In this document: piece by piece, positions 2,024 through 22,623 of the stretch | Numbering within the stretch: the first letter of the stretch is position 1 | Layout of the letters: each line of letters begins with the position of its first letter | Origin: Pigoraptor vietnamica | Taxonomy: Eukaryota > Opisthokonta > Filasterea | Direction of reading: 5' to 3' | Length of the DNA: 23,930 bases | NCBI GenBank assembly: GCA_943704525.1 | Contig: CALSCQ010002434.1 | Coordinates: forward strand, 1-23,930 | Notes under the pieces: generated by a model | The model's input: the letters and a program-made list of their open reading frames with translations, nothing else | Database searches by the model: none | What the model was told of the DNA's origin: nothing | Made by a program: the position numbers and the translations under genes

Positions 2024-3724
2024 ATGGCGGCGTCGGAGGGCGGGGGATTGCTTCCCCCGCCGGTGTACGACCCCAATGCGGTCTACTACGACGAGTCCGG
2101 CCAGCAGGTCACCTACGAGCAGTATGTCGCCGCGTACGACCGGCAACAGCAGGCGCTGAAGAAGGCGCAATTGAGCGGCGGCGCTTTCTCAAAGAGCGGC
2201 ACGGCGCTCAACACGGTCGTTGAGAGCGCGGGGGAAGAGAGCGACTTGGATTCGTCGTTTTCGCCGCGTGGGAAGGCGGCGTCGCTCAGGGCGAACGATG
2301 ATTACGAGACTGTCGAGTCGCTTGTAGAGGAACTCGAGCGATTGAAGGTGGAGAACATGCGGCTGTCCGCGGACAACGACGACCTCCGCGCGCAGGTGGC
2401 GCTGCAGACGACGCTGAAGGCGCTGGACCTGCTCGCGACCGTCAACGACAAGATATCGGAGACGAACAACGAGCTGCAGCGGCAGTACCAGGAGGCGCTG
2501 AAGCTGCAACAACAGCGCGCGCTCAAGGTGCGTTTGGTGGAGTCGGATGTTCTTGCGTGTGGTGAGAGTGTGTGCACACACGTGTTCTGGCGTGCACAAG
2601 CACTCAGCGGCTGCGCATCTGCAAACTCTGTCGAAGTGCGCGTCGTAACATGCCCCTTTCGCCCTTTCATTCGCAGGCAAAGGCGAACGGCGCGCAGGCG
2701 TCGAGTGGCCCTGGGAGTGGCAACGGCAGCACCGGCAAGTCGCCCCGCAACAACGGACGGAACCCGAAGGACATTGCCGAGATCTCGCGGCTGAAGATTG
2801 AGCTGGAGACGCGAGACAAGCAATTGGCGAAGATTCGCAAGCACTTGGACCTCACGCGAAAAGAGAACGGCGTATTGCAGAAAAAGGTGGACGAGTACGG
2901 CACGGCGGGTCAGATCACGTCGCTCGAGAACGAAATTGTGGCGCTCAAAAAGACCATCAAGGGCTACGAGCACGAGCTGCAGGTCGGTGGTACCCTCGAT
3001 GCAAGGCGATAGTGGCACACGCGTGCTCGTTTCGCTTGGAGGGTTTACGTGGGGGGGGGGGGGGGCCATATGTGGACCCCTCTTTTCCAACTCACCCACA
3101 CCGCCAACTGCCTATCCGACGACACTGGTCCGGCCGCAATTCTCACTGGCCATTTTCCGTTCTTTCTCTGCGCAGGTGATGCGCCTCATCCAGCACCAGC
3201 AGGAGAACGCGCTGCTGCAAAGGGAACGAAGGCACGCGGCATCCACGGCGGCGCACAATGACAAGCCGCATGGCGACGACGTCTTTATTCCGGCGAGGGG
3301 TCCGCTGCGACTCACCGCGCAGGTGCGTCGTAGTGCGCGCACGCCTGCACTCCGTTCACAGTGGGGTTGCTAGGGTTCGCGAAGCCATCAATTCCTTTAG
3401 ACTCTACTATTCGCAGCCCCCTGCTCTCTCGTCGTGTGGGATCCACGCATCTCATTGGTACAGGCGCCATTCTGCCTTTGTTTTCTCTTTCGTCCATTGT
3501 AACGCACAGTGCCTGACCGTTACTCTTGCCATGCGCCTCTCCAGACGCGGAAGCCCATGCAGCCGATGGGCCCCATGAAGCCGTCCCAAATGACGGCACT
3601 CCCGTCCATCGTCGCCGCACAGAATGCGCGGGCCGCGGCAGCCGCAGCCGAGAGCCACATTCCGTATGTGAAGACAGGACCGCACGGCGACCACGTCGTA
3701 CCAGAGGGCGCTGGGCCGTGGTGA
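2024..3724 (+). CDS. Coiled-coil protein of unknown function, four exons, 378 aa
   Basis: Four exons join in phase 0: 2024-2527, 2677-2982, 3176-3322 and 3545-3724, ending in TGA. Donors are GTGCGT, GTCGGT and GTGCGT; acceptors are CAG, CAG, CAG and CCAG-type. The N terminus holds a proline/tyrosine-rich segment (PPPVYDPNAVYYDESG, residues about 11-26), then a Ser/acidic stretch. Residues about 95-168 form a first coiled coil (LVEELERLKVENMRL). A Gly/Ser/Asn-rich linker follows (about 169-198), then a second coiled coil at about 200-300 (RLKIELETRDKQLAKIRKHL). The tail is Met/Pro-rich (QPMGPMKPSQM), then Ala-rich, and ends at PEGAGPW. I do not recognise the family. No membrane segment or signal peptide is seen. 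The head-to-head position with BBS9, only 433 bp away, allows co-regulation and a cilium or basal-body role, but that is inference only. The ATG is chosen because exon 1 is open from it and the upstream extension is low-complexity. Confidence 0.85.
3051..3065 (+). repeat. Poly-G homopolymer in an intron
   Basis: Fifteen consecutive G lie in intron 2 (2983-3175) of the coiled-coil gene. The tract could form a G-quadruplex in DNA or pre-mRNA, and it is also a likely length-error site in sequencing. Confidence 0.9.
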
Positions 3725-4104: not shown

Positions 4105-6996
4105 TCATCTAAAGAACACAATTATGGACCCGGGGTTGCTGCTCTCGTCAAACGACAGACCCTCTCGCACCAGGTACGAGATCACCGCAGGCCGCAGCCG
4201 CGCACGCCCGCCTGCGCTGTGGCTCCCACGACCCGTCACCACCTCCAGTGTGTCGACGGCTCGCGCGCCGCGTCCACTCGACGATCGCGCTGCCCGCTTT
4301 GCGCCGACAACAAATTCGAGCGTCGCAATGGCCTCCGCCACGACGAGGCCATGCAAGTCGAGCACGCTGAGGGCGGCGGCGTCGGCGGCGTCCAGCATTC
4401 CGAGCGACTCGCCCTGGGACGCGACAAACAGCGACACGGCGACCGCACCGCCGTCTCCCTTTCGCATAAGCAAGGGCCCGGCGAGAGCACGCTCCACCTT
4501 GGCCCGCGCAGCGTGCTCGCGCGCCGTCGCAGAGTAGTGCCCCGCGACCGCACTCTGACCTGCGTGGAAGGCTTCGGCTGCTTTGGCGACGTATTCGGCG
4601 CGCAGGGCGTCGTGGCGAACGGCAGCCGCCGCGTGTGAAGCGCGACTAGCAGCAGGCTCAGAGGCAGCCGTCCCAATGTCCGTTGCGCCGTTTTTCGCCG
4701 CAACGCGCAACGTTCTGGCTGGCACTGTGTTGTCGGCGGCGAGCGCAGACACCGCGGGCGGTCCGAAGTCGTCCGCGAGCAGCTGCACGGCCGTCTCGAT
4801 CGACTCACCGGCGGCCTCGAGAATACCCGCCAGGTCACCCGCGGGCACGGAAGGGTACATGTCACGCAGCCGCGCCAGCTTGATTTTGCCGGCAATCGAC
4901 GGGCCGTTCGCACTTCCGCTTCCGCCGGCACGTGCGCTTGGGACGCCAGCAGTGACGTCAAGCACGCGTTTCGATTTTGAATTGCCACGCCGCTTGCGCC
5001 CACGGCCGCCAGCAGAAGTCTTCTCGTCGTGCGTGTTCGTGCTGGCGTGGGCGGTTTGCATGTCAACAAGGCCGTACTCTTCCGTCAGCACGCGAACGGC
5101 AGCGTCCACGGCAAACGCGGCCGTCTCAAACACAGTCAATAGAATGTCTTCCGGCATCTCCGGAAAGCGGCGCTGGAGAGCAGAAAATCCCTCGTCCTGT
5201 TCGCCGGACGCGGCGAGCCCATTATCGGCCCGTTTGAGCGCATTCCCCTCGCCCACGCCGTCCCCCGCACTGCCCGCCGACAGAATGAACGCCACAGCCG
5301 TGTCAAATTCGCCGCCCGCGTCACGCAATGCCGCGGCGAGCGCGGCGGGTTCTGCGCCGGGAAACATCTCGCGCAGGTTCTTCAGGGCGCACCGATTTTC
5401 CTCGCTGTTCGGCAGATTTGCGGCCCTCAGCACAAACGAATTGTCGAGCGAGTCGTCGACGTCGTCGTCGGTCAGTGCATCTGGGGTCGCGCCCCCATTG
5501 AGCGTCATGTCCGCCACCGCATTCACCACTGCAACCAACGCTTCGTTCGAATTCGCATTTCCGACGGGAAAATCTTCCGACAGAAATTCCGTGACGGCAT
5601 CCAAAGTCGTGTCGAGTGCCGCGAGTGTCTCGATGGCGGCGTGCACGTCGCACTCATTCTCGCTCAGAATGGACGCAATGAGCGCACCGTCGACGCCGGG
5701 AAATGCGAGCACTAGAAAATCGAGCGCATCCGCTGGCACGTCCGAACTGGATGCGCCCACTGGCTCGTCACGTGCCAGACTGCGCTTGTACCCGGGATAT
5801 CGGGCCCACGTGCGCGACCCACGCGCAGCGCTTTGTTCAAACACAACGCGCACTGGCGATATCGGCGCAACGGGATACCGGTCCAGATCGTCGGATTGCA
5901 CGCTGCGTGCGGGCGACGTGGGCACTGGATTCGCAGAGGGCATGGTCGCACGCGGCGATGCGGGGACTTCGTTTGTGTCGCCATGTTCTGAAGACCATGC
6001 AGGGGGCGTCGCTTGCATGTATGGCGCAGGGAATGCAGCCGAGGCGGCGTCGGATTCGGGGGGCGCGTAAGACGTGATATGGGTCGACTGGGGCGCACGC
6101 GATGTTGTGTGGGGCAATTGGGGCACAGCGCCGCCCATGGTCGCGCGCACATCCGAAGACTCGAACGACCAGCCACTTGCACGCAAGGTCACGTGATCGG
6201 AAGGTGGCGCAGCGCCATATTCAAGGGGCTCATGCGCCGCGCGGGTGCTCTCGCTACTAGCTGCTGACCACGCCGTCACGTGACTTGCTGGGCGCGTGCG
6301 GACTTCCGCGTAATCGGACCGAAGAGCCGAGGCAGGGACACCCGTGCGGGAAGTGGGCATGTAGCTCGAGACATACCCGCGCGCCCACGCGGCGTCCGAA
6401 GTGGGTGCATGCGATTCACGCCCCCGTGCGTGGGACCCGTGCCGCCACGGCTCAGATCCGTATCTTCTTGCATTCGCGCCTCTTCCCTTCTCCGGTTTCC
6501 CGCGATTTCCACGGCTCCGTGCAGCGGGACGGAAAGAGTTGAAGGAGGAAGACGCGTCGACTGTCGATGCAGGCGCAAGGGAAGGGCCACTAACGTCGCG
6601 CTCCAAGTCGAAGTCGTCGTCGTCTTCGTCCAGAATGCGACCAAACGGATTGCTCCCATCACTGAAAAACAAAAGAGGCTCGTCCTCAGAGCCGCCGGGA
6701 TGCTTTCCGGCGCCTTCGCGGGCGAATTCCGCGCGTTCTGCAAAATATCTCATGTCAGTAACGCAAGTAGCAGAGCACCTCGTGAGAGTAACGCAAATGT
6801 CTCTCTGTGCTCGCACAGCGTGCACGTGCGTTCGCCCACCTTCGAGGCCCAGCGGGTTTTCCAGCCACCACCCGCGGCAATTGGGGCGCGCAAAAGGCTC
6901 TGCGCGGAAAGGGCATCGCGTAAGTTGCCGCTTGACCAACTCAATGTCCGTTTTCAGTGCGAGCACCCACCGCCCGTTACAAAATCGCCAAACCAT
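4105..6996 (-). CDS. CUE-domain, DUF1771 and SMR-domain protein, Cue2/N4BP2-like no-go decay endonuclease
   Basis: Two exons are proposed: 6996-6840 and 6737-4105, giving 929 aa. The 102-nt intron (6839-6738) has a GTGGGC donor, a TTACTGAC branch-like site and a TTTTGCAG acceptor. It is a multiple of three without stops, so retention is possible (963 aa). In spliced numbering, residues about 70-370 are low-complexity with an acidic patch (DEDDDDFDLE). Four CUE-like ubiquitin-binding modules follow at about 390-430 (LVLAFPGV), 503-540 (LREMFPGA), 570-608 (LQRRFPEM) and 671-711 (LRDMYPSV). A basic stretch (GRGRKRRGNSKSKR) lies before the fourth. DUF1771 spans about 761-804 and the SMR domain about 844-929, with LDLHG and TGRGSHS, the two signature motifs. 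Yeast Cue2 and worm NONU-1 share this layout and cut mRNA on stalled, ubiquitin-marked ribosomes. The conserved Asp/His of LDLHG suggests an active nuclease. No N4BP2-type polynucleotide kinase domain is seen. The far N terminus (Trp-rich, from 6996) is less certain. Confidence 0.88.
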   Translation of the reverse strand: MVWRFCNGRWVLALKTDIELVKRQLTRCPFRAEPFARPNCRGWWLENPLGLEGGRTHVHAVRAQRDICVTLTRCSATCVTDMRYFAERAEFAREGAGKHPGGSEDEPLLFFSDGSNPFGRILDEDDDDFDLERDVSGPSLAPASTVDASSSFNSFRPAARSRGNRGKPEKGRGANARRYGSEPWRHGSHARGRESHAPTSDAAWARGYVSSYMPTSRTGVPASALRSDYAEVRTRPASHVTAWSAASSESTRAAHEPLEYGAAPPSDHVTLRASGWSFESSDVRATMGGAVPQLPHTTSRAPQSTHITSYAPPESDAASAAFPAPYMQATPPAWSSEHGDTNEVPASPRATMPSANPVPTSPARSVQSDDLDRYPVAPISPVRVVFEQSAARGSRTWARYPGYKRSLARDEPVGASSSDVPADALDFLVLAFPGVDGALIASILSENECDVHAAIETLAALDTTLDAVTEFLSEDFPVGNANSNEALVAVVNAVADMTLNGGATPDALTDDDVDDSLDNSFVLRAANLPNSEENRCALKNLREMFPGAEPAALAAALRDAGGEFDTAVAFILSAGSAGDGVGEGNALKRADNGLAASGEQDEGFSALQRRFPEMPEDILLTVFETAAFAVDAAVRVLTEEYGLVDMQTAHASTNTHDEKTSAGGRGRKRRGNSKSKRVLDVTAGVPSARAGGSGSANGPSIAGKIKLARLRDMYPSVPAGDLAGILEAAGESIETAVQLLADDFGPPAVSALAADNTVPARTLRVAAKNGATDIGTAASEPAASRASHAAAAVRHDALRAEYVAKAAEAFHAGQSAVAGHYSATAREHAARAKVERALAGPLLMRKGDGGAVAVSLFVASQGESLGMLDAADAAALSVLDLHGLVVAEAIATLEFVVGAKRAARSSSGRGARAVDTLEVVTGRGSHSAGGRARLRPAVISYLVREGLSFDESSNPGSIIVFFR

Positions 6997-7845
6997 CCTC
7001 GGTACGCAGCGCCTTCATCGCGGGCCATTACTGACGGTGCATTTCCAGTCGACTGGACCGCCTGTGCGGGGCGCGCTCTTTGGGGTCGGTCGCCAGCCCC
7101 GCGCCCGTGCGAAGGCTGCGGATGCGCGCGTGCGGCGCGTCGAGTGGACGGCGACGACGGGCCATGCCTGGAGTGCGGGTGCGGCCGCGAATGCCCACGC
7201 CAGTTGGTGCGCTGCGCGGATTGCCCACGGTGCGGGGACTGCGAGTGTGCGTGCCACTCGTGATCGGGGCGTGGCGAGCGGTACGGTGCGTGCGTGTGTT
7301 CGCTGCCATTGTACGGGTCCTCAGTGGCCGCCCCATCGACCCTTCTCCATTCGCCGTCCCCATCGGGCGCATCCGCCTGCGCACTATGCGCGCCTGCAAT
7401 GCGCCCGCGCCGCGAATTCATAACTGGGCTTCGAAAGAGATGCATATGCTGCAGCGACAGAAGAAAAGGATGTTCATGCGTCAACATATCACGTGATAGC
7501 ACGTGATGATCAGCGATTATCCGAAATCTCGCTCAATGGAGTGGACTGCCCTGGCAACCGGGTACTTACTAGAGAGTCTGCTTTCAACCGACGCACACGG
7601 TGAAAGGCCTGAGGGCATCCTCACACACTCGCTGAACTTTGCCGCACTCGCCGCGTTCCCTCTTCTGTTTAACGCTCTTGTGTGCTGTTGCATTACTTCT
7701 TCTTCTGTTGAACTCTCGTGTGTCCTTCTCACCTTCGTGTGCCACGAGCGCTGGTCGAAGTAGGTCTGCTACATGGGACAATAACTGGGCGGTCGAGTCG
7801 ATCCCCGTCGTGGGCTGGGGAGGCGTTCACGCCGTTGCTCAGAAG
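6997..7845. promoter_or_regulatory. Divergent intergenic region between the CUE-SMR gene and XRRA1
   Basis: These 849 bp separate two divergent start codons. The part at 7040-7263 is very GC-rich and contains an isolated Cys-rich plus-strand reading frame (see findings). ATCACGTGAT lies at 7488-7497, and a second CACGTG core at 7500-7505, ten bases from the first core. The last 250 bp before the XRRA1 ATG are pyrimidine-rich, including CTTCTTCTTCTG near 7697. CACGTG palindromes are E-boxes bound by bHLH factors in other eukaryotes; that role here is inference. Confidence 0.45.
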
Positions 7846-10800
7846 ATGGCGTCGACGTCGTTTGTTCCCACGAATTTCTTTCCCCCGCGGCAGCTGAACC
7901 GACACGGCGGCCGCGGTGAGTGCATCTGCCTTGCGAGTGTCTTGCTGGGCAGCTGTCCTTTCTGCTGCGCTGACGTGTGTTGCGAATAGGGGGCGGTATG
8001 TGGGCACGGACGTCCACTGCGACGTCAACAACGACGCCGTTTTCGGTGCATCGGCACATGAAAGAGCGGCAAAAGTTTGAGGCCTCTCTTGGCCGTCGCC
8101 CTCCCGAAAAGCTGTCTGTGGATGCCGGCGCGAAGAGCGAAACGGACACGCACAAGGGGTCGTCGGCGGTGTCCACTGTCGGCGACAACGATCGCGGCGT
8201 CTCGTGGCTGTTGGACGGCTACTACATGGTGCGTGGAACAGGCGTATTCGTGCGCTGTGTTTGTGTTTGTAAACAACGAAACATTGCCGCGTTGTTTGGA
8301 GATGCCGCTGCTGAGTATTGGGCCGTCCGCAGCTGCGCGCGTGCCATGTCGCGGACCCGGACGACGCGTACCGGTGCAAGATCAACGGGCGCAATCTGCG
8401 CGCGGTGGTGGAGGAGGACCTGCAGCACTTTCGGAACCTGACCATGCTCGAGGCGAACGAGAACACGCTGCAGTTGGGCCCGCTCGGCGCGCTCCCGAAC
8501 GTCGAGGTGATGCGGCTCGCCTTCAACGAAATACGCGACGTCGTGATAGCGCAGGGCGCATTTGCGCGGCTGGAGGTGCGTGGCGTTGCTGTCTGCGTGT
8601 GCGGAACGGGCATTCGCGGACCGCGTGCTGTTTGTGCGCATTTGCGATCCATTCCTTGTGTTGTCCCCCTTTTCCTTCTTCATTTTTCCCCCCTTTTGTT
8701 TCTTGAACAACTCACGTTCACCCACACTGTCCTCGGCAGTCGCTCGACCTCTCCTTCAATCGGCTGTCGCTCGATGCTGTTCTCGCGCTGTCCGAACTGC
8801 CGCGCCTGGAGACGCTCGACCTCACCGGAAACGGCCTCTCGTCATTTCCCGCGTACAAGCAGAGCGTCGTGTTCTTCCCGCGCCTCGCAAACCTTACCTT
8901 GGACCGCAATGCGCTATCAGAAGACGAGATGTTTGCCACACTCGCGCCGCTGCCGAGCCTAAATCGCCTGAGCGCACGCCACAACCGCATCGCTCGCGTG
9001 CCGCCCGCCGACACGGCGCGCCGCCTGCCGTGGTTCAACGCGCTCCAGTCGCTGGACGTCGCGCACAACGCCATCGCGACCGAGGACGACCTCGTGGGCG
9101 TGACGACATGGCCGGCCGTGCGGGAGCTCGTGTGCTGGGGGAACCCGCTCGCCCTCGCGCTGAAGGTCGGGTACGGGCTGATGGTTGCGCTGGTGGAAGA
9201 CCGCGGCATGAACGTGGTGAAGCAGGAGCCGGACGGCAGCGGACGCACGCGCGTGCACCTCGCGGCGCATGAGGTACTGCGTGTGAAGGAGGATCCCCTG
9301 CCGCCTATAGTGCGCGGGCAGCTGCAGATCACGTTTCCCTCCAAGGTGCGTCGAGTGGTCGCTAGCTGCGATGACCGCTGCGCAGACCGAGTTCTGTGTT
9401 ATTTGCTGTTGCGTCTGCTTGGGATTCGACATTGATGGCAGCACTGGTCCTTGACGCTGCGTGGCTCGTTTCTCCATTGTTGTGTGCGTGTGTGTGCTGA
9501 TGTGTCTGCGTGCGCACGTGCGCAGGAGGAGTCGTCGAGCAGCGAGTCGGAATCGTCGTCGGAAAGCGAGGAGGAAGAGGCGTCGAGCGAATCCGACGGG
9601 TCGGACTCTGATTCCGACGACAGCAAGAGCTCGTCCGACGAGTCCGAGTCGGAGGACAGCAATTCCGACAGCTCGGAAAAGCGCTCGAAGGCGAAGCGGA
9701 AGAAGCGCAGCGCCAAGGACAAGGGCAAAGAGAGTGACGCGAAGGAGGCGAAAACCAGCAAGGAAACCAAGGGGACTGACGAGCGAAAAGGGGGCGACGC
9801 CCCGCCTGCACCATCATCCGGGGGTTTCTTCATGACGCAGGCCGACGAGCCCGCAGGCGCCCCTACGGCTCCGTCGGGTGTGCAGCCCGTTACTGCCGAG
9901 GCGCTTTCTCTGCTCGAGGCGGCGGCGGTCGCGCCGAAGCCGGTGGCCGCCGTGGTGCCGCGGCGGTATCGAGGGTACGAGGCGCTGCTGTCGATGGACC
10001 CGGAGGAGGGCGACCCGCCGGCGGTGGACTTGCCAAGCGACACGCGCGGGGCTGTGCAGGCGCTGCGCTATGCCCTTGCGCGCCCGCTCGTATTTTCGGA
10101 CAAGCCGTCGCTGGCAGGGTACAAGCGTCGCAATCAACTCAAGCGGCAGATGCAGGACTCGCTGGCATCCCGCACGGCCGCGAAGGCGCTCAGCAAGACG
10201 CGCGCGCAGGTGGCCGCGGCGAACCGGCAAGCGTCGCAGGGACAGCTACCGCCCCCACGGCGCGCGTCGCTCGCGCTGACGGTTGTTGCACCAGACAGGC
10301 GTGCCTCTCAGCTACCAGGGGACCGTCGTGCGTCGCAACTACCGGGCGACCGTCGTGCCTCCCAATTGCCCGGCGATAGGCGCGCGTCCCAATTGCCTGG
10401 CGACAGGCGCGCGTCCCAATTGCCTGGCGACAGGCGCGCGCCCCAATTACCCGGCGATAGGCGCGCTTCTCAACTGCCGCCGCCGGCGGGTGCGAGGCGA
10501 ACGTCGCAATTGCCCACGGGCGACCGCAGGGGGTCGCAACTTCCGCCGCCCGCCAACCGCCGCACGTCGCAAGCACCGGCCACTGGGGACAGGCGGGGAT
10601 CCCAGCTGCCCCCGAACCGGCGCACGTCGCAGGTCCCTTCGGCAGCCGACCGTCGCGCATCGGTGGCACCACAGACGCCCTTGAGCGCTCTCTCGGCACC
10701 GCTATCGCAGACTGGCGCGACGTCCACGCAGATTGTTGTGCACGCTCTCGCCTCGACGCTCGCGGAGCTGGCGACGGCACCCGGCTACCGCGCGCCGTAT

Positions 10801-11579
10801 AAGGAGAGCGCGCTGCAGCGGGCGCGTCGGAAGATGGCCGCCACGCGAGTAACGGGCGCGAAGAAGTCGGTGACAGTGGAAATGGTCGTCGAGGCCATGA
10901 GGGAGCGACCGGCGGTTGAGGAGGACAGTCTCGGTGAGTGCTGCATTGCTTGTGCCGGTTGTTCGGTGCTCGGCCGTGCACTGCTCTATTTCTTACCTGT
11001 GTTGCATATCGTGATTCCCTCGTTTGCGATGATGCGTAGACGCTAGTCAGCATGTACCTTTTACCTTGTAAGCGGCACACTCACGAGATCTCGTCCTCGC
11101 ACGCAGCCACTGTCCTCGCGCAACCCGCCGTCGTGGCACCGAAGCTCTCTCGCGGGGCGGAGCGTCTGCTGCAGAAGGCGCAGGCCGAATTCGACCGCGT
11201 GCGCGCGTCCACCATCGGCGCCGCCGAGCAGAAGGCGATGCTCGGGGACATGTCCAACTCGCCTGAGCTGGCCAGTCTCATCGCATCGCGCGCTGCGAGC
11301 GTCTCGTCAATGAGGCGCATGTCGGCGGTGCTTGGGCAAACGGCGTCGCAGACGTCGTCCGCCGCGTCGCCGTCTCCTGTGCCCCCGATGGGCTCGCCCC
11401 CGCCGCGCGGTCTCACGGCGCTCATGGAAGACGACGACGCACCGGGTGTGTCGCCGGACCGACGCGTGCTGAGCGTCGAATCGCGCGCGCAGTCACGTGG
11501 GCAGTCGCGCAGCCCTTCGCGCTCGAACAGCATCGCGACTGACTTGCGACCGTTGTCGCGCCAGTTCTCGTCGCACTAA
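7846..11579 (+). CDS. XRRA1: XRRA1-like leucine-rich repeat protein with an RRxS repeat array
   Basis: Six exons: 7846-7915, 7990-8228, 8333-8575, 8740-9345, 9526-10933, and a last exon starting at 11107 (or 11047, also in phase) and ending at 11579. This gives about 1012 aa. Donors are GTGAGT or GTGCGT. The start ATG precedes a segment (FFPPRQL) that resembles the XRRA1 N terminus. Leucine-rich repeats span residues about 104-340 (for example LDLSFNRLSLDAV, LDLTGNGLSSFP, RNALSEDEMF). Exon 5 begins with about 50 residues of Ser/Glu/Asp (casein-kinase-2-like), then a basic stretch (KAKRKKRSAKDK). Residues about 532-576 carry the XRRA1-specific block (RRYRGYEALL, then AVQALRYALARPL), the strongest support for orthology. 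A nonapeptide array follows, then a Ser-rich tail with SRSPSRSNS. XRRA1 is named for altered X-ray response in human cells; its biochemical role is poorly known. The acidic tract and repeat array make this protein longer than I remember for the human protein (about 790 aa). Confidence 0.87.
10294..10671 (+). repeat. 27-bp coding minisatellite: DRRASQLPG nonapeptide array in XRRA1
   Basis: Seven in-phase nonapeptides lie back to back (consensus DRRASQLPG; the sixth has Pro for Ser). Looser copies follow (ARRTSQLPT, DRRGSQLPP, NRRTSQAPA, NRRTSQVPS, DRRASVAP). Adjacent units are nearly identical in DNA, for example GACAGGCGCGCGTCCCAATT twice in a row. Counting PRRAS just upstream at about 10258, there are 13 RRxS motifs and one RRAP. 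RRxS is the classical basophilic (PKA-type) phosphorylation consensus. Confidence 0.95.
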
Positions 11580-12006: not shown

Positions 12007-15000
12007 TCAGTCGGACTGTCCAACGGGCGGGACGCGTTGTCCTTGCACGAGACTGACGGGAGGGGCGGGCGGCGCCGGCAACCGTGCGTGCAAATCCGAA
12101 TACGATGCGATGGGCTCACTATCGTATTGCGACAGCCCCATCTCCGTGCCGGGGTAACTATCGTCACAACCCGCGGGAGTGCTCTTGGTCCGACCGTCCC
12201 ACTCCGATGCGAGCTCCACGAACACACCGAGCAGGTCCAGTATGCGCGCGAACGAGGGGCGCAGGGCGGGATCTTCGTTCCACGCGGCCACCATCAGCGC
12301 CGCCCACGGCTCTGGACAATTCGCGGGTGTCGGCGGGCGCAGGCGGTAGTGGGAAACGAGGCGGATAATGTCCTCGCGCGAGAGATCCGTGTGCGGGAGG
12401 CGCCGGCAGAGCAACTCCCACAGAATGACGCCTGCATGGGAAACAGCGACGGTCACAAACAGTGCGTAACGGCAGCAGTCAACCGCAGCGCCGCACGCTT
12501 AATAGCTCGCTGCGTGGCATCGCCAGACCATCGCAAATTCTTCTGGACCCACCGAAGCTGTAGGCGTCCGCCTTTTCGCCTTCGAATGGGACTTTGCGCA
12601 CGACCTCCGGCGCCATCCTGCGGTCCAATGGACAGGGTTGCTGGCATGAGTATATACGCCTACTCCGCAGTGGGCCAAAGAGTAAGACGATGATATTGCG
12701 CGCCATTGTGAGTGCACAAGTGCTCTCGGTTGACGCGAGCAGTCGCAACGCACCACAGCAGCGTCCCCGTGCGGCCCACGTCAAGCTTTCTTCCGCGCTT
12801 GAATTCTGCCAATCCAAAATCGCCGACCTGAACCATATTTAGAGGGTCATTTTAGATCACTTCGAGGGAATTATGCAGTGAAGGACGCTCCCCTGGCATG
12901 CGTAGATTTCGCATAAGCACGCACCTTCACGCGCATGGCTTCGTCGACAAACAAATTGAGGCTCTTGAGATCGAGGTGGTCTGTGGAAATGGATCAACAC
13001 GGCAGACAAAATGAGATCACTGCAACCCGGGGCACATGTGACGTCCCACTGGCCATCATCTTACTCACATATGGGCGGGTTGGATGCGTGCAAGTAGGCG
13101 AGCCCTCGCGCGGCATCCGTCGCTGTTGGGGTTGGGAATTGTCACCCGCACAGCCAACCCTCGCTTGCAATGTGCGCACACTTGGTTTGACGCGTGCACA
13201 GGGATTGAAACGGGTGCAATTGCGCCTATGTGTTAGCCCACTAACCCATTTCAACACGCAGACGCCAGTCCATTCCAATCTGCGGGTTGCTGTAGACGTC
13301 GTAGAGGCTGCCGCGCGCCATCAGCTCAACAACAATGGCGAGTTCGGGGTCTGCGGACGGAGAAGCCATACTCAGCATGCGGCGCACACAGGCACAGAGG
13401 TTTGAGTGTGGAACTGAAGAGCGACTACCACTCACACTGCACACTCGCGGCGAGAAGCATGACGATGTTCGGATGGCGGAGTGCGCTCATCGTACGCACC
13501 TCCTGCGCCATCACAGGGAAACAATGAACTTGAGCATTTGGAATGCGCAATCAAAGATATCTAATGTCACACCACACTCAAAGCACACACCTTCATGAAG
13601 CCGGCGACCGCGGGCTTGAATACGTCCGAGGGTATCTTCGCGGGCGGCGGCTTAGCGACAGTTAATGCCTTGCCCTTCGCGTTTCTGTCCCCTCCATCGG
13701 CGATTGGCTCGAAGAGGAGGCTGCTTGCGATGGCGTCCACGCGGCCACGCGCACCCATGCGCTTGACTGGCGCCACTTCCACGCCCTTGATGCAGAGCGT
13801 CTTGATCGCCACGTGGGACCCGCGGAAGGAGCCCTGCGGTGGTACCGTTAGTTCGCCGATGTGGGATAAAGCCGAGTGCGCAATTGACATACTCACCAGG
13901 TACACTTTGCCGTACGTTCCCTGCACCCAAGCAAACACAGATAAGTCGACGTCACAACACGCACAGACCCTGTCGGCGAAAACGATGCATGGGCACTACA
14001 TACAATGTACAGTATGGTCACAAGAGTTAAAAAGGCCAATACAAACCTGTCCGAGGAGTGTCTGGAACGAGAGCTCACGGAAATCGACCTCGTAGTTGCG
14101 CTCCTCGCGCTCGATCGCTTTCTTCTTTCGCCAGTACATGACGGCACCAAAAGCAGCGACAGCAACAACGGCCGCGGGAATGACCGCAAACACAGCCGAC
14201 GACGTGTGCGCTGCATGCCGAGGCTGTTAAAGTTACATACAAACCCCGGGTGGTCCTCCCCCTCTTTCCTTTTCTCACAAGACCATTTCCCAGGAACCCA
14301 CCTGCTGACGACAACTCCACACAAATAGGGTAGCTCGTCCCATCGATCGTTTCGGCACTTGTGTAGAAGCCCTTTCCGCATGGTAGCACAGTTGCGACGA
14401 ACGAAGCCGATATGTTCGACGTACGAAAGAACGGCGAGGCAGAGATGAGCGCCACAGTGTACGTGCCGGGATCTGCGAAGATGCGCACGGACGGGAACTG
14501 CGCGGTCGAGTGCAGGACGGCCTTCTTCGTCAGTCCCTGGAGGCGCACGCGCGGCGCCAACGCATTGCCGCGCCCGAGCGGCGACAGTGGGCGCGCCTCC
14601 ATATTGATGAGGAGCACGTGGTACGGATCGGTCGCTGTCCACTGGCCGTATGCGTCCAGTGCGACGACGCTGACGGTCGGCAAAAGCCCGCCGCTCGTAA
14701 CGACAACGGGTCCACTCGACGCAAGCGACACGCCGATAGATCGCGGCGGCGTAGCCACGGCCGACGTAAGCGCGTCCGCCGTACCCGGTCGAGAGGCAAA
14801 GGTGCAGTTCACAATGTCACGGCCGACGACAAAGTACGATTGCGTCTGCGTCGAAAAGCACGCACTTCCAAGCTTGGCTACATTGCCAACGAAGGCCGTG
14901 TCCCGCAGCTTCGCGGATGCGCCTGACGACGGGTCGAGGAGAACGGCGCCCCCTTCGCCGCCGTCCACGTCGCGCACCACGTTGGCGATGAATGCGGACG

Positions 15001-16828
15001 CGCTCACCTCGAGGCGGCCCTGCGAAGTAACCGAAACGGCGCCGCCACCAACCCCTGCGCTGTTACTCCGCAGCGTGCACTCGCTCAAATATGCCGAAGC
15101 GGAATCCGTTACGAGCAGCACACCACCACGCGAAGCGGACGGCGCGGCCGTGTTGTTCTCAAACACGCAACGAAACGCCTCGAGCACCGAGGCGGTGTCG
15201 AAAAATATGGGCGCTTTGGCGGGCCCCATCGACGTGTTGTTTACGAAACGCGAGTCGCACATACGCAGACGGCCGTCGTCCGATCCGGCGACGACTTTCA
15301 GGCCGACATGGTCGCGAATTACAGTCTGAGTGACGTTCACTTCGGCCCACGCCTGGATGGCGGCGACCGAGCCCGAATTGCGCGCGATGAGGCTGCGCTC
15401 GACAGTCAAGCGCCCGCCGCCCTCAGCGTGGATGCATCCACCATAGTATGTCGCGGCGAGGTTGTCCGTACATTCCGAGTCCGCGAACAGGACGTGCGCA
15501 CTCCCACGAGCGCCGAAGCCCCCGCCTGACTCATACCCGGTGTTGCCGGTCACCACGCACCCGCGCACCACCACGGTCGCCGCCAGCGTCGCAAACAGGC
15601 AGCCCCCAGTGAACCCCGCGTAATTCCCACGGCACACGCAGTCCGTCACTGAGACATTCGACGCTGCGCCTGTCACATACAGGGCTCCCCCAAAGTCGAG
15701 CACTTTCGAGTCCTCGAGAACGCTCCCGTGCAAGGCGACCCGCCCTGCGTCCTGCAAGGACAACGCACCGCCCCAGCCAGCCGTCGCCGAATTCGCCGTC
15801 AAATTCGTACGCTCCACCGACACAAACGCGGACAGGAGCGCATACACACCACCGCCGGCGTCAACCGCCGTGTTGCCGTCGATGCCTGATTGGTCGACGG
15901 CGAAATGTCCGTCAGAGGTGACGGACGCGCACCCGCCGGTCTGTTTCGCGGAATTGCGCGCGCAACGGGACGCGAACACGTCGGCGCGGCTGTACCCCGA
16001 CACAGCCATCGCACCGCCGCTGAGGGCTGCGTTTCCTGTGAAGTCGCATTGCGACAGCGACACGGACCCTCCGCCGCTAACGGCCAGCGCACCGCCCGTC
16101 GCCGCCGTGTTGTTCTCAAAGTGTGAGTCGGTCACAGTGCCCTCCGCTCCGCCCGAGAGGACCACTGCGCCACCCGCGTCCACCGCAGCGTTCCCACTGA
16201 ACACGCATGCCTCCAGGGTCACCGACGCAGACGCACCCGTCACGTGCACACCGCCGCCGTTGTTCGTTGCGCTGTTGTTGCTGAATGCGCATCCAGTGCA
16301 TCTAAAGTGCGCATCGCTCACTCGAACCGCACCCCCCTTCGCAGCGCCCGCGTTACCCACAAACAACGACCCCACCGCCGTCGCATTCGCTCCGCCCGAC
16401 ACGCACAGCGCCGAGCCAGCGCAGTTCGAGAAGGTCAGATTCGTAAAAACCACGACGACAGACGCACCGCCGGAGATGTCGAGTCCCGCACCCGCAGCGC
16501 CATTTGCGCACGCAACAGTTGCACTTCCGTCGCCAGCACTGGCGAGTGAGAGCGCAAAAGTCACTGCCACACCCGCATCGAGCACGTGCACACCCGCATG
16601 CAGCACAATAGTGGGTGCGCTAGAACCGCCGGTGACCTGCGCCGCAGCGACGGCCGCAGCGAGGGACGCGAGGGGATGCGTTGCGTTGCCGCGACCGTCC
16701 GCGTCCACACCGCCCGAAGAGGGTGTGGCCACGTGGAGCACCTGTGCACGCACGATAAAGACGGTGTGCGCCCAAACTGACAGCGCGATTGCAATGGCGG
16801 CAGACCGAGTCACGTGACGTGTCGCCAT
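12007..16828 (-). CDS. Receptor-type TKL protein kinase with Pmp-like beta-helix ectodomain (minus-strand paralogue)
   Basis: Eleven exons, 1267 aa: 16828-14302, 14210-14047, 13920-13897, 13833-13591, 13502-13436, 13350-13246, 13122-13069, 12980-12925, 12827-12754, 12617-12553 and 12431-12007. All phases match those of the divergent paralogue. A signal peptide (about residues 1-28, ending FIVRA) precedes QVLHVATPSSGG, a usual opening of secreted beta-helix proteins. Residues about 60-700 are GGA(V/L/M) and FxxN repeats (GGAVRV, FSNNSA, GGGVHV, FSGNAA), as in chlamydial Pmp proteins. One membrane helix (FAVIPAAVVAVAAFGAVMYW) and RKKK follow at about 850-875. Kinase landmarks are: glycine loop LLGQGTYGKVYL; VAIK (Lys about 916); helix-C Glu in KEVRTM (about 987); HLDLKSLN (about 1063-1070); DFG (about 1083); MAPE (about 1109). 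The DLKSxN form points to Ser/Thr specificity in the TKL group. Oddities: HLD for HRD, LLW before MAPE where the partner has LRW, a ~60-residue beta-3/helix-C insertion, and a 24-nt exon. It likely acts at the plasma membrane as a sensor; the ligand is unknown. Confidence 0.9.
16084..16741 (-). repeat. Left arm of a 658-bp inverted repeat
   Basis: The reverse complement of this stretch aligns without gaps to 17553-18210; paired coordinates sum to 34294 throughout. By hand I count about 16 mismatches, so identity is near 97-98%, and the first ~140 bp of each arm appear identical. It encodes the N-terminal mature ectodomain of the minus-strand kinase. Confidence 0.95.
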
Positions 16829-17007
16829 TTCCGTTGGCCGGCAGTGGGCTGGCGGCAACGTCACTGAATATCACAGCGCTCAGCGAACGTAGCTGTGGGA
16901 CTTCGAGTAAAGTGGGGTGCGTGTGTGTTGTGCCCGCTCGACGCAGAGCAACTGCGAGCAACCCGGCTATGTGGCGGCGCGTCAACTTCGGCTGCGGTTA
17001 CCCCACT

Positions 17008-17023
17008 GGACAACGTATTGTCC
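17008..17023. promoter_or_regulatory. Perfect 6-4-6 dyad overlapping a CCAAT box
   Basis: GGACAA and TTGTCC are perfect inverted arms around CGTA. The right arm runs into CCAATCAG. The site sits 180 bp from the minus-strand ATG and 448 bp from the plus-strand ATG. It is a plausible dimeric factor site; no specific factor is recognised. Confidence 0.45.
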
Positions 17024-17209
17024 AATCAGAGCACACCAGGTGGCTAAAAATTGCATGCCCCCACCCGTTCCCCGGCATGTTCGTGTCCGAGTTGACGACT
17101 TCTCGAGTTCCAGAGTGGCTGCTGCCCCGGCGTGCGACCATGTGCGCGTGTCGCATCCGGGCAGTCGCGTATGCGCCGGTTGCAGTCGACCTCTGTATCC
17201 ACCGTGGGC

Positions 17210-17300
17210 TCGGTGCGCCGGCTCCCGGCCGACCGCCGCCGTCCGGCGGCCGGCGACGCCGGCGCCGCCGATCCGCCGGCCGCCGGCTGGCGGCGGGGGC
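17210..17300. repeat. GC-rich palindromic cluster in the kinase promoter
   Basis: This run is almost only G and C, with overlapping inverted repeats. One is a perfect 7-bp stem GCCGCCG/CGGCGGC with a 2-nt loop at 17235-17250; another lies around CCGCCGGCCGCCGG at about 17274-17287. It could form cruciform or hairpin structures and lies at the centre of the larger 658-bp inverted repeat. Confidence 0.6.
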
Positions 17301-17471
17301 CGTGCTCAGCCGAGCCCGCAGCCCGTGGGCGGCACTGGCAGCGAAGAAGTGACCGTGCTGGCAGCGAACGCGGTGCGCCCTGCTTATAACAACAGGTGGC
17401 ATACGCGAGAGTGATTCGGCCTGCTCAGAGTGCCCCGCGCGCCAACTGTCACGTGACCCGCACGTTGTAAA

Positions 17472-20400
17472 ATGGCCGCCTCGGTGACACTCGTCGTGGC
17501 ACTGCTGTGCTTTCACGCCGTTCCCACGACATGCGCACCCCCGCAGCCGCAAGTGCTCCACGTGGCCACACCCTCTTCGGGCGGTGTGGACGCGGACGGT
17601 CGCGGCAACGCAACGCATCCCCTCGCGTCCCTCGCTGCGGCCGTCGCTGCGGCGCAGGTCACCGGCGGTTCTAGCGCACCCACTATTGTGCTGCACGCGG
17701 GTGTGCACGTGCTCAATACGGGTGTGGCAGTGACTTTTGCGCTCTCACTCGTCAGTGCTGGCGACGGAAGTGCAACTGTTGCGTGCGCAAATGGCGCTGC
17801 GAGTGCGGGACTCGACATCTCCGGCGGTGCGTCTGTCGTCGTGGTTTTTACGAATCTGACCTTCTCGAACTGCGCTGGCTCGGCGCTGCGCGTGTCGGAC
17901 GGAGCGAATGCGACGGCTGTGGGGTCGTTGTTTGTGGGTAACGCGGGCGCTGCGAATGGAGGTGCGGTTCGAGTGAGCGATGCGCACTTTAGATGCACTG
18001 GATGCGCATTCAGCAACAACAGCGCAACGAACAACGGCGGCGGTGTGCACGTGACGGGTGCGTCTGCGTCGGTGACCCTGGAGACATGCGTGTTCAGTGG
18101 GAACGCTGCGGTGGACGCGGGTGGCGCCGTGGTCCTCGCGGGCGGAGCGGAGGGCACTGTGACCGACTCACACTTTGGGAACAACAAGGCGGCGACAGGC
18201 GGTGCGCTGGCGGCGAACGGAGGGACTCTGTCTGTCGTTTCGAGTGCCATCGTCAGCAATAAGGCCACGAACGGCGCGGGGTTTTTTCTGTCCAATGGCG
18301 CGTGTCTGGACATGGTCGCCGGCCTGTGCAGCGCCAACAGAGCGCGCACCGGTGGCTGTGCGCATGTCACCACGGCCGCCAACGCGTCGTTCCGCGGCGT
18401 TGCGATTGATTCCAACACAGTGAACGACCAGGGTGCCGGCGTATGGGCGATTGGGTCCTCAGCGCTGTTCGACGGCGTGCATGCCTCCCAGAACGCCGTG
18501 CTCGGTGGCTCCGGTGGCCTCTTCTACGGCGAGGAAAGTGCGGTCGTTGCTCGCGGCTGCGTTATCGAGCGTAACTACGCCAGCGAAAAGGGCGCCGGTT
18601 TCATGCTGGCCCTCAATGCGCACATGCAGTTCAGCGACTCGACATGCCGGTGGAACAACGGCGTCCGGGACAGCGGGTGCGCGCACGTGCAGCGGGGATC
18701 CGCTGCTTTGATCGACCGCGTGCGTGTGGATTACAATTACGGGCGGCGCTCCGCCATCAATGTGTGGTACACGTCCACGCTGCACATGAGCGACTCGACG
18801 TGCGACGGAAACGCGGCGCTGCTATCGTATGCGGCGTGCGTGTACGTGTCTGATTCGAACGGATATTTTGCGCGCGTGAACTTCACAAACAGCTGGGGCG
18901 TGACGTGGGTGTCGGCCGTCCTGTGTGACGGCGTGGCGGTCGCTGAGATCTCCTCGTCGATCGTCGCCAACAATTACCGCGAGTCGGCGCTGATGCTGTG
19001 GGACACGGCCGAGGCGCGCGTCACGGACACGGTCTTCCGCAACAACACGTGCTCGGAGACGGCCTACGGTGGCGGTGCGATTGTGGCGATGGACTCGACG
19101 CGCCTCGCGGTGACGCGGTGCATGTTTGATGCGAATCAGGGGCGGAAGTCGGCGGGCGCGGGGGGTGCGGGGGGTGCGGTGACGGTGATGACGAGCGCCC
19201 AGGCCACCTTCTCGGACTCTGTGTTTGTGGGCAACGTGGCGCAGTCGGGTGGTGGGGCGCTGAACGTCCGGGACAACGCGGCCGCGCATGTCACGGGCTG
19301 TCGGTTCGGCAACAATGTGGTGTTGGATGGTGACCTGGGCACCGGCGGTGCCATTCTCTACGCCCCCGCGGCCGGTCCATCGGCCATGTCCATCAACAAC
19401 TCAACGTTCGCCGCGAACACGGCGTCGTTTGGGAGCGACATTTATTCCGCGGACGTGGCTCGTCCACTGCTCTTCGGGGCCAACATCGCCGGCTGCGCCT
19501 TTACGGAGGGCGCTTCTGTCACAAGCCCTCCCGTTTCGATTTCGATCGCGCCCTCCACACGAGGCCCCTTTTCAGTCGCGAGCGGTGGCACTCTCCCGCC
19601 GATCAGCGTGTCTGCCGTCGACGCCTACGGTCGTCCCGTAGTGCCGCTCTCGTCGCGCGTGCTTATCATCGAGCTGAGCCTGAGAACCCCCGGCGCTGCT
19701 GTGCCCGCCACGGGTGCCGCGCTGCAGGGCAACACGGAGGCGGCGGTGCTCACGCCCGATGTGCCGTTCTCTGACGTCCGCGTGTTTGCGCCGTCGGGAA
19801 CGTACGCACTCGTGGTGGGTTCGGGAACACCGCTGTACGACCGCACCGTGTTTCTTGATGCCGCCCCCGTCACGGTGACGCCGTGCGTTTGGCCAATGTT
19901 GGAGGCGTCGGTTGTTGTCAACGGGCAAACTGTGCTCGCGTGCCAAGCCTTCTCCGAAGGCTCAGGTACGTCCATCTTGACGTCGCGTTACATTGGCGAC
20001 TTCATGGCGTTCGCACTGTGCGTTTACGTGCGTGGATTCTTGACGTCGCGTCACATTGGCGATTTTATGGCGTTCGCACTGTGCGTTCACGTGCGTGGAT
20101 TCTTGACGTTGCGTCACATTGGCGATTTTATGGCGTTCGCACTGTGCGTTTACTTGCGTGAATTTGTGTTTAGCCTCACTCTCAAGCACTGATCGTGTCA
20201 CTTCGCAAGAGACTTTCTCTGATGTGATTGCGCGTGCGCACTATCCTGATGATGTCATCTAGCTGTGCATCCGTTTGAAAAGCGTGAACTTGGGGGAGGG
20301 GTCGTCTGCCGTCGTCGCTTATTGGTCTGTATAATCGCAGGCTCCATTTCAGTCGCCGTGTTCGCTGCGGTCATCCCGTGCGCCGTTGTAACGGCTGCTG

Positions 20401-22623
20401 TTACGCTGGGTGTGCTCTACTGGCGCAAGAAAGCGCTGATGGAGCGCAACGCACGGAAGTACGAGGTCGAATTCCGCGAGCTCACGTTCATCTCGCAGAT
20501 TGGGCGGGTGAGTAGGCCCCTGTGTGCGAAGTCGTGTTCTGTTGCGGCATATGACACGTTATTTATAACATTCAACCTTTGCGCATGCAGGGGTCGTACA
20601 GCACCGTGTACCTGGTGGGTCCACCGACAATGTATATTACGTGTGCATGCGTGTGCCTCGCTGTGTTTCGTGTGCGACTGCTTACGCGCGCGCTGCCGGC
20701 CCGCGAGCCTCATACGACATCACCCGTCCGTTCACAGGGCTCCTTCCGCGGGTCCCACGTGGCGATCAAGACGCTCTGCATCAAGGGCGTGGAAGTGGCT
20801 CCCGTCAAGCGCACCAGTGCCCCCGGCCGCGCGGATGCATTCGCGAGCAGCCTTGTGTTCGAGCCGATGGGCGAGGAAGAGGAACCCGACGGAAAGGGAC
20901 ATGGTGCGCGCGTGCTAGGCGGGCGCGCTCAGATTCCGTCGGACGTATTCAAGCCCGCGGTAGCCGGCTTCATGAAGGCGCGTGTGCTTCGAGTATGCCG
21001 TCCTTGGTTCATGCATTCCGAATGCTCAAGTTCTCTGTGTTTCCTTGTGATGACGCAGGAAGTGCGCACGATGAGCGCACTCCGCCATCCGAACATCGTC
21101 ATGCTTCTCGCCGCCAGTGTGCAGTGTGAGCTCGGTTGCCAATAGGAAGTCGTGTGCCCCTGTGCCGCGAGCTGAGTCCTCTGTCTCCGCAGACCCCGAA
21201 CTCGCCATTGTGGTTGAGCTGATGGCGCGCGGCAGCCTCTACGACGTCTACAGCAACCCGCAGATCGGAATGGACTGGCGCCTGCGCGTCTCCATGGGTG
21301 GGCCACCTGCCGCGCTTTCTGCACGCATCGCTCCCCCGCCCTTGCAATGTGCGTATGCTCACACTCTTCTATGACCGGCATGCAGCAACCGACGCCGCAC
21401 GCGGACTTGCCTACTTGCATGCGTCGAATCCGCCCATATGTGAGTGCCGCGGCGTTAATCAGGCAACCCCAATTAAAGCCGTGCCGCCGAATCTGTGTTG
21501 GCTGCGTGCAAAGCTGCGCTATTGCCTTCGCGCTGATCACTGTCCCTCGCAGACCACCTCGACCTCAAGAGCCTCAATCTGTTCGTTGATGAGGCCATGC
21601 GCGTGAAGGTACGACTTCAGTTCCCCCTTCTGCGCCATCTTGCAGTCATGCCTTGCGAACGGCTGGCCTTCGTTCTCTCAGGTGGGCGACTTTGGTCTCG
21701 CCGAATTCAAGCGCGCAAGTGGCAAACTCGACGTTGGGCGCACGGGAACACTGCGGTGGTGAGAGTTATCACTGGGAGTGTTGTGGATCCATCTGCGCTT
21801 GAAGTGCTCGTACTGAAAGCTCATTCATTCCGTACGCTGAGGCAGGATGGCACCCGAGGTGCTGAGCGGCAAGTCTTTTGAGGGCGACAAGGCCGACGTG
21901 TACAGCTTCGGTGAGTGGATCGTCCTTACATCTTGCAGCTCGCGTGCCAACAAAATTTCACCCATGCCACCGCGCTCTTCTAGACACACGTGCACACTCG
22001 CCCGCGCACGCAGAGACACGCACTCTCGCCCGGCGTGCACTATCACTTTCAGCACATTAACGCACAACACTAACACGCACACATTTCGCCTCGCACACAC
22101 TCAACACGCAGGGATTGTCTTGTGGGAACTGCTGTGCCGGCGGCTGCCGTATGCGGAGGGGCGGCACGAGCACACGCGGCAGGACATCATTCGGCTCGTC
22201 AAGGAGGACCGCATGCGCCCCCATGTGCCGCCGCACTGCCCTGAGCCGTGGGCTCTGCTGATGGCCGCCGCGTGGGGCGACGACCGTGCTCAAAGGCCCT
22301 CCATGAGTCACGTGCTCTCGACGCTTGAGGACTTCGACCCCGTCGGATGGCCTGTGGACGAAGCGGTTGCTGCGCTACGTGCCCGCCCTATGCCGCCGCT
22401 GGACGACGGGTATGCGAGCGGAAGCACAGAGGGAGGGAACATGATCCGCGAGGGGGGTACGGGGTCGTCGCCGCACTTTGAGACCGACGCGCGTGCGCCC
22501 GTGCGGCAGGGGCACCTCCGCATTGGCGTTGCTGATGGATACGAAGGCCACGTACGGTTGCCGCAAAGCGCCGATCGACCGGGACCGCGCGGGGCGGACC
22601 GCGACGACCAGGCTACTTCTTGA
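17472..22623 (+). CDS. Receptor-type TKL protein kinase with Pmp-like beta-helix ectodomain (plus-strand paralogue)
   Basis: Eleven exons, 1286 aa: 17472-19965, 20341-20507, 20591-20614, 20738-20977, 21059-21125, 21193-21297, 21386-21439, 21553-21608, 21682-21758, 21846-21910 and 22112-22623. The signal peptide is MAASVTLVVALLCFHAVPTT and a few more residues, then QVLHVATPSSGG. The Pmp-like GGA/FxxN beta-helix runs to about residue 720, followed by a beta-rich segment (ISVSAVDAYGRPV). The membrane helix (about 833-857) is VAVFAAVIPCAVVTAAVTLG and LYW, then RKK. Kinase landmarks are: QIGRGSYSTVYL (third loop Gly replaced by Ser); VAIK (Lys about 906); KEVRTM (Glu about 976); HLDLKSLN (about 1052-1059); DFGLAEF (about 1072); TLRWMAPE (about 1093-1099); IVLWELLCRRLP. 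The tail of about 95 residues is low-complexity. Exon 4 ends AAG|GCGCGT, which implies a GC-AG intron (a weak GT six bases on also keeps phase). Intron 1 (19966-20340) holds a 63-bp in-frame repeat. It is probably a plasma-membrane sensor kinase; its ligand and substrates are unknown. Confidence 0.9.
17553..18210 (+). repeat. Right arm of the 658-bp inverted repeat
   Basis: This is the partner of 16084-16741. Identity starts exactly at the QVLHV codons just after the signal peptide. It stops at the GGALA codons: beyond these the two ectodomains diverge at once (GGALAVSGGG against GGALAANGGT). Confidence 0.95.
19977..20161 (+). repeat. 63-bp tandem repeat, about 2.9 copies, in intron 1 of the plus-strand kinase
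   Basis: Units start with TTGACGT at 19977, 20040 and 20103, exactly 63 bp apart, and contain GGCGTTCGCACTGTGCGTT. The period is a multiple of three and the exon 1 reading frame stays open to 20192. A retained intron would therefore encode three copies of a ~21-residue hydrophobic unit (IGDFMAFALCVYVRGFL). The minus-strand paralogue's intron 1 is only 91 nt and lacks the repeat. Confidence 0.95.

Follow-up and report, generated by a model that had tools for sequence, protein, structure and literature searches.

How two neighbouring genes come to carry nearly the same outer tip on otherwise dissimilar ectodomains, and whether their products act as partners, is the question raised by a head-to-head gene pair of the filasterean Pigoraptor vietnamica. 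The window is the whole stretch of 23,930 nucleotides that constitutes contig CALSCQ010002434.1 (C1002) of the 32.5-Mb assembly GCA_943704525.1, which comprises 1395 contigs. Gene A, of type I (12007..16828, minus strand), and gene B, of type II (17472..22623, plus strand), are both open from ATG to stop and encode 1267 and 1286 amino acids, respectively. In either product, a signal-peptide-like start is followed by a beta-helix, a beta-sandwich, a membrane helix, a kinase domain, and a tail. An earlier interpretation made from the DNA letters (the sequence-only reading) had seen in them a pair of receptor kinases with ectodomains in the style of chlamydial Pmp proteins. The explanation tentatively favoured here regards A and B as the two chains of a paired receptor at the cell surface, the partners of which would share a pair-specific outer tip.

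Ectodomains with Two Histories

Three loci contain one type I and one type II gene each, namely, C1002, C184, and C912; the search for other such pairs that had been proposed along with the sequence-only reading has, hence, revealed two further loci of the same subfamily. The partners diverge from a single spacer in two of the three loci (643 bp in C1002, 385 bp in C184), while in C912 they are arranged tail-to-tail. Residues 251-500 and 501-838 of the ectodomain both split the six genes by type with a bootstrap value of 100 (42-100 inside the types), type I comprising A, C184 minus, and C912 plus, and type II comprising B, C184 plus, and C912 minus. Residues 29-245, on the other hand, group strictly by locus, again with a bootstrap value of 100.

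This membrane-distal tip, made up of the first ~220 residues, shows 95-98% DNA identity within pairs. At the protein level, residues 29-245 are 94.9, 93.4, and 95.3% identical within pairs versus 49-53% between pairs, and their synonymous divergence (dS) within pairs is 0.034, 0.091, and 0.045, compared to 1.05-1.86 in the other two ectodomain segments; between loci, the two comparisons computed gave 1.27 and 1.72. In the window, blastn delimits the shared tract to 662 bp with 97.4% identity, located at 16083..16744 on the minus strand in A and at 17550..18211 on the plus strand in B. The tracts of the three loci end within seven residues of each other, at A-equivalent residues 249, 246, and 253, and start at residues 30, 13, and 11. 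The same 28-residue coil is absent from both C184 partners, and ~216 bp upstream are alike at C912 (85.6%) but not at C1002.

Two other sources of identical tips were considered and rejected, recent duplication because dS exceeds 1, and thus approaches saturation, in the remaining ectodomain, and amino-acid constraint because the synonymous sites of the tips are nearly identical, too. Judging from these values, the tips evolve in concert between the partners at all three loci, and gene conversion from partner to partner would be the simplest cause. The ectodomain ratios of nonsynonymous to synonymous divergence (dN/dS) computed are all below 1 (0.26-0.81), with synonymous sites near saturation outside the tips, so that positive selection is not detectable.

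Smaller exchanges would seem to reach the kinase as well. A and B have identical sequences over the opening 62 bp of exon 4 (13772-13833 in A, 20738-20799 in B), which together with the last part of exon 3 make up an identical coding run of 71 nt. Exon 5 is 96% identical between A and B and 97% within the C912 pair; the two comparisons computed between loci gave 78 and 87%. Both stretches probably represent small second conversion patches. A reciprocal swap between the types has affected the membrane and juxtamembrane halves at C184 (bootstrap values 97 and 87), as a crossover between inverted arms would produce, and the locus still contains one of each.

From exon 2 onward, the kinases of C184 plus, C912 plus, and C912 minus are built from exons that follow each other as in A and B and have almost the same lengths. 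Exceptions are exon 9 of C912 minus, which is shorter by six bases, and exon 4 of C912 plus, which is split by a 33-base gap in its variable insert, probably an artefact of the program. The kinase of C184 minus ends after exon 4 at the contig end, within a (GT)n intron. Contig C1370, which opens with (GT)n, then carries exons 5-11 of a kinase of this kind. Since (GT)n stands at both contig ends and the exons are complementary, C1370 is probably the missing continuation of the C184 minus kinase, the two contigs being treated as separate. In addition, the end of contig C1168 (12274-12573) contains an N-terminal tip with 44% identity to that of A, which is cut by the contig end and may belong to a fourth pair.

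The Beta-Helix Ectodomain and Its Membrane Anchor

Exon 1 of A (14302..16828, minus strand) and of B (17472..19965, plus strand) encodes the signal-peptide-like start and the entire ectodomain. Pfam Beta_helix (PF13229) matches both ectodomains, at 7.3e-27 (A) and 2.9e-22 (B). From input alignments of nine (A) and six (B) sequences, AlphaFold2 predicts a right-handed beta-helix with three strands per coil for both; the predicted local distance difference test score (pLDDT) is ~97 in the middle coils and averages 85.2 (A) and 85.4 (B), with predicted template modelling scores of 0.76 and 0.74. Confidence is low in the first ~27 residues and in parts of ~36-51. The structure prediction, which might have spoken against a beta-helix, has rather strengthened this part of the sequence-only reading. 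The strand pattern of the models places a membrane-proximal beta-sandwich, less certain than the helix, at about residues 690-840 of A (14309..14761, minus strand) and 689-826 of B (19536..19949, plus strand).

The repeat style of Pmp proteins, which had suggested the initial comparison, is evident in both sequences. GGA[ILVM] occurs eight times in A and seven times in B (shuffle means 0.49 and 0.44, maxima 4 and 5), and FxxN nine and 11 times (means 1.41 and 1.98, maxima 7 and 8), so that the motif counts exceed those of all 2000 shuffles. The asparagine autocorrelation of A peaks at 27 residues (0.238, with 0.237 as the maximum of 1000 shuffles) and that of B at 26 residues (0.191, below the shuffle maximum of 0.194). 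The profile Chlam_PMP (PF02415) matches A with 22.3 bits at a cut-off of 20.6, while B gave no match up to an E-value of 1; among the six paired genes, four exceed the cut-off (A, C184 minus, C184 plus, and C912 plus), and C912 minus stays just under it. When the whole genome was searched in six frames with PF02415, no match was obtained at E 0.001 (42 candidates scored). Membership in the autotransporter families is not upheld, since neither ectodomain matches any of them in Pfam (E up to 1). GGA[ILV] and FxxN repeats on a beta-helix, thus, are what A and B have in common with chlamydial Pmp proteins; the C-terminus consists of a membrane helix and a kinase instead of the autotransporter barrel, and the genes are eukaryotic, spliced, and kinase-fused. 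The likeness is one of repeat style only.

A search of A against solved structures by sequence gave no match for the ectodomain (E up to 0.1). By structure, Foldseek lists PL6 alginate lyases for both models (6.0e-06 for A, 1.2e-06 for B), besides O-antigen-binding tailspikes, capsule-specific enzymes, and the adhesin PfbA. Among the 50 neighbours listed per model, most are carbohydrate-binding or carbohydrate-cleaving beta-helices. The query-normalised template modelling (TM) scores of the rows listed are low (0.10-0.39), so that only the fold class is in common. A bacterial relative was also sought in GTDB through short peptide patterns of A. Of 44 stretches matched a single one was confirmed, in Hymenobacter montanus (30% over residues 131-680), which is uninformative as to origin.

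Hydropathy would be in accordance with a signal peptide and a single membrane helix, as expected of a type I receptor kinase. The strongest hydrophobic stretches are residues 842-870 of A (2.52) and 830-860 of B (2.48), corresponding to approximate membrane helices at 14134..14205 (minus strand) and 20346..20417 (plus strand), and the N-terminal starts score 1.76 and 1.87, respectively. Residues 408-428 of A, which lie within the beta-helix, are also hydrophobic (1.83).

A Non-RD Kinase of the TKL Type

The assignment of the kinase to the TKL type is borne out by matches to PF07714 (3.9e-48 for A, 1.3e-46 for B) and, for A, which was the one searched, by its best solved relatives, that is, CTR1 (3ppz, 2.5e-52) followed by MAP3K9, with B-Raf also among them. 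According to the gene models, the kinase Lys, Glu, Asp, DFG, and APE are all present in A and B, and a variable insert lies between VAIK and helix C. HLD replaces HRD in all six genes or gene parts with a catalytic-loop exon (A, B, C184 plus, C912 plus, C912 minus, and C1370), by which A and B are classified as non-RD members of TKL. The TKL/MAP3K kinases CTR1, MAP3K9, and B-Raf, which differ in having HRD, are cytosolic kinases not known to have an ectodomain of this kind. In the four gene pairs computed, kinase exons 5-10 have dN/dS values of 0.06-0.17; this purifying selection implies that the signalling output matters.

The exons given by the gene models follow the domain order on the minus strand in A and on the plus strand in B. 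Exon 2 (14047..14210 and 20341..20507, respectively) encodes the membrane helix, the juxtamembrane part, and the kinase start. The glycine loop, GTYGKVYL in A and GSYSTVYL in B, occupies exon 3 with 24 nt (13897..13920 and 20591..20614), VAIK and the variable insert, which in A is part of the N-lobe, exon 4 (13591..13833 and 20738..20977), and the helix C region exon 5 (13436..13502 and 21059..21125). Further kinase sequence is found in exons 6 (13246..13350 and 21193..21297) and 7 (13069..13122 and 21386..21439). Exon 8 (12925..12980 and 21553..21608) contains the catalytic loop HLDLKSLN, without Arg before Asp, exon 9 (12754..12827 and 21682..21758) DFG, and exon 10 (12553..12617 and 21846..21910) APE. 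Exon 11 (12007..12431 and 22112..22623) comprises the kinase end and a cytosolic tail, which is longer in B than in A.

Ectodomain and Kinase, Very Probably as One Gene

Introns separate the ectodomain from the kinase in A and B, and it is in these two genes alone, not in their paralogs, that the joint between exon 1 and exon 2 is resolved. Gene prediction might, therefore, have merged genes for secreted beta-helix proteins with unrelated kinase genes located downstream of them. The relatives elsewhere in the genome make such an artefact highly improbable. In L034 (C327), a single frame of at least 1121 amino acids runs from ectodomain-like repeats through a membrane helix to the end of a kinase that is complete, and L036 (C465) has the same single-frame layout as far as the beginning of the catalytic loop. 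Pfam finds the kinase in both pieces but no Beta_helix at E 0.01, the repeats being recognised by weak matches to A (2.9e-8 and 3.4e-4) and by reading. On C717, an above-cut-off Beta_helix match and a kinase match fall within one open frame of 1136 amino acids on the minus strand, according to the matches listed, and in L022 (C602) a Beta_helix frame (4.5e-18) runs into a kinase-like start. The ectodomain-then-kinase order recurs more widely. Outside the three pair loci, the matches listed comprise 54 clusters with similarity to the ectodomain or Beta_helix (C1006, one of them, in the sandwich part only), and 12 of these are followed downstream by a kinase on the same strand at a distance of at most 4 kb; a single additional combination of kinase and cluster over this distance has a different arrangement, its kinase already belonging to the facing cluster.

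Given the uninterrupted frames of these relatives, in which ectodomain-like repeats, membrane helix, and kinase are continuous, the fusion is very probably genuine, and the receptor-kinase architecture described in the sequence-only reading can be retained with ectodomain and kinase as one gene. The frames in L034, L036, and C717 together with the 12 clusters indicate that beta-helix receptor kinases constitute a family in this genome, of which A and B form one subfamily. The receptor L034 (C327, ~2396-3187) is distinguished by the motifs HRDLAARN, a loop typical of tyrosine kinases, and RWMAPEA, its kinase being tyrosine-kinase-like rather than of the TKL type.

Paired Chains or Independent Receptors

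In the proposed scenario, A and B would be type I membrane proteins, with a rigid beta-helix rod standing on the membrane-proximal sandwich and a cytosolic MAP3K-like kinase of the TKL type beyond the membrane helix. The pair would be old and would have been duplicated as a unit, giving rise to three loci with one gene of each type. The tip would be copied from partner to partner by gene conversion, while the remaining ectodomain would stay type-specific. Consequently, the two members of a pair would expose one and the same tip, either towards a common ligand or towards one another, and their differing stalks would allow assembly as a defined heteromer. A repeated ligand or tip-tip contact would then cluster the chains, whereby the MAP3K-like kinases would meet and phosphorylation would follow. 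Co-expression of the partners, dimerisation, and a downstream pathway would all belong to this scheme. The idea that a divergent pair could act as a heterodimer, put forward in the sequence-only reading, obtains indirect support from the co-retention of the two types and from the matched tips.

Nearly as likely is a purely mechanical origin of the tips, in which A and B are two independent homodimeric receptor kinases and the matching tips a by-product of inverted duplication; a probability of about one in three would be appropriate. Conversion would run where the copies are still similar and halt where they have diverged. Two of the loci are indeed close inverted duplicates, a smaller within-pair patch exists in kinase exon 5, and the tracts end where divergence becomes large, which by itself can stop conversion and could go back to the ancestral pair. 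Moreover, no selection is needed for conversion to occur between inverted copies that lie close together. What this leaves unexplained is that all three loci possess exactly one gene per ectodomain type and that the C912 tip is homogenised although the gene starts lie ~11 kb apart. Several further observations weigh against the paired receptor. Head-to-head geometry cannot be essential, because C912 is tail-to-tail. In the kinase core, the split by type is blurred, the closest relations being A-B (78.3%) and C184 plus-C912 plus (79.4%) with supports of 50-82. C912 minus (L033), with HLDLNSHN and a shorter activation loop, may be a weak kinase, a pseudokinase, or a scaffold kinase. For a tail-to-tail beta-helix pair on C1378, blastn of the parts compared returned nothing at E 1e-5, and the proteins are 26-29% alike; since these parts share no DNA, the concerted-tip pattern is not general to the wider family. 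Finally, the evidence for pairs comes from three loci of one genome.

A function as sensors of bacteria, prey, or matrix polysaccharide, as envisaged in the sequence-only reading, appears somewhat unlikely; it does not compete with the pairing model but can be combined with it. The groove of the beta-helix would bind a long polymer and the kinase would signal feeding or defence. A glycan ligand is kept as a possibility because most of the listed structural neighbours are carbohydrate-handling beta-helices, including PL6 alginate lyases, O-antigen-binding tailspikes, capsule-specific enzymes, and PfbA, but the TM-scores speak for the fold class only. The non-RD loop points in the same direction inasmuch as non-RD kinases are tied to innate immune signalling across kingdoms (PMC8463890); HLD may, however, be a trait of the lineage. 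A self/non-self or pair-recognition system, in which conversion would write each new tip into both partners at once, is rather improbable. If true, a new specificity would arise already matched and pairing would not be broken.

Gene Structure and Spacer

The residue counts of the sequence-only reading are confirmed, whereas its unit ("1.27-1.29-kDa") is erroneous. Exon phases are, as it had stated, the same across all 11 exons of A and B, which is attributable to duplication and has no bearing on function. The splice sites of A are canonical, and all introns of both genes are GT-AG with the sole exception of B intron 4 (20978-21058), which is GC-AG; a GC donor is also present at that intron in the type II gene C912 minus. 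About half of B intron 1 consists of a 63-bp tandem repeat in three copies with 93% matches (19975-20164), while no such array is listed for gene A.

Between the two start codons lies the 643-bp spacer (16829..17471). The head-to-head arrangement assumed for a shared bidirectional promoter is present, and the promoter itself would be a candidate suggested by geometry. Comparison with the 385-bp spacer of C184 revealed no significant similarity and no conserved promoter elements (best E 0.10).

Other Genes in the Window

The remainder of the window encodes, at 516-1442 on the minus strand, an N-terminal homologue of PTHB1 (BBS9; 1.6e-54), which suggests a ciliated organism; spliceosomal introns identify it as a eukaryote, and an attempt to place it by EF-1A recognised only HBS1-like proteins. 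The PTHB1 frame is followed by a 969-amino-acid frame that contains a CUE domain and matches Smr and DUF1771 weakly (4105-7014, minus strand) and by a leucine-rich-repeat frame (8707-9435, plus strand; LRR_4, 1.5e-12). In the plus-strand frame 9436-11046, a 27-bp tandem repeat (10294-10478) gives rise to peptide repeats of the DRRASQLPG type.

Comparison with Known Systems

Beta-helix receptor kinases were not found described in the titles or abstract starts of the open-licence papers searched, and the term "beta-helix" is absent from the accessible part of PMC4053784. If the pairs work as pairs, they would represent a protist receptor-kinase family with an ectodomain class not found for receptor kinases in that literature, and with tips evolving in concert between two partners. 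Among solved structures, the closest beta-helix folds in the matches listed are PL6 alginate lyases and phage tailspikes, which are alike at the level of the fold and, with their low TM-scores, not beyond it. These are enzymes or adhesins that are not known to have a membrane helix or kinase.

In genome organisation, one of the two closest counterparts is the allorecognition system TgrB1/TgrC1 of Dictyostelium. The two membrane-protein genes are paired and diverge from one spacer, intralocus recombination has occurred repeatedly, and matching sequences heterodimerise (PMC12324515, PMC3188802). How new two-chain specificities arise without mismatch is posed as an open question for that system (PMC12324515). 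Tip conversion between partners, as suggested by the three loci, would be a simple mechanism for changing a two-chain specificity. The Tgr ectodomains are composed of IPT/Ig-like repeats, families for which neither A nor B gave a match in Pfam (E up to 1), whereas A and B are both kinase-bearing and have near-identical rather than complementary tips. Tgr proteins are not known to contain a kinase domain. Head-to-head organisation is likewise found in paired plant NLRs such as CHS3-CSA1 (PMC11298796), which are intracellular proteins with unrelated domains. The A/B pair is, thus, nearest to TgrB1/TgrC1 and to the paired NLRs in genome organisation, and it is a member of neither.

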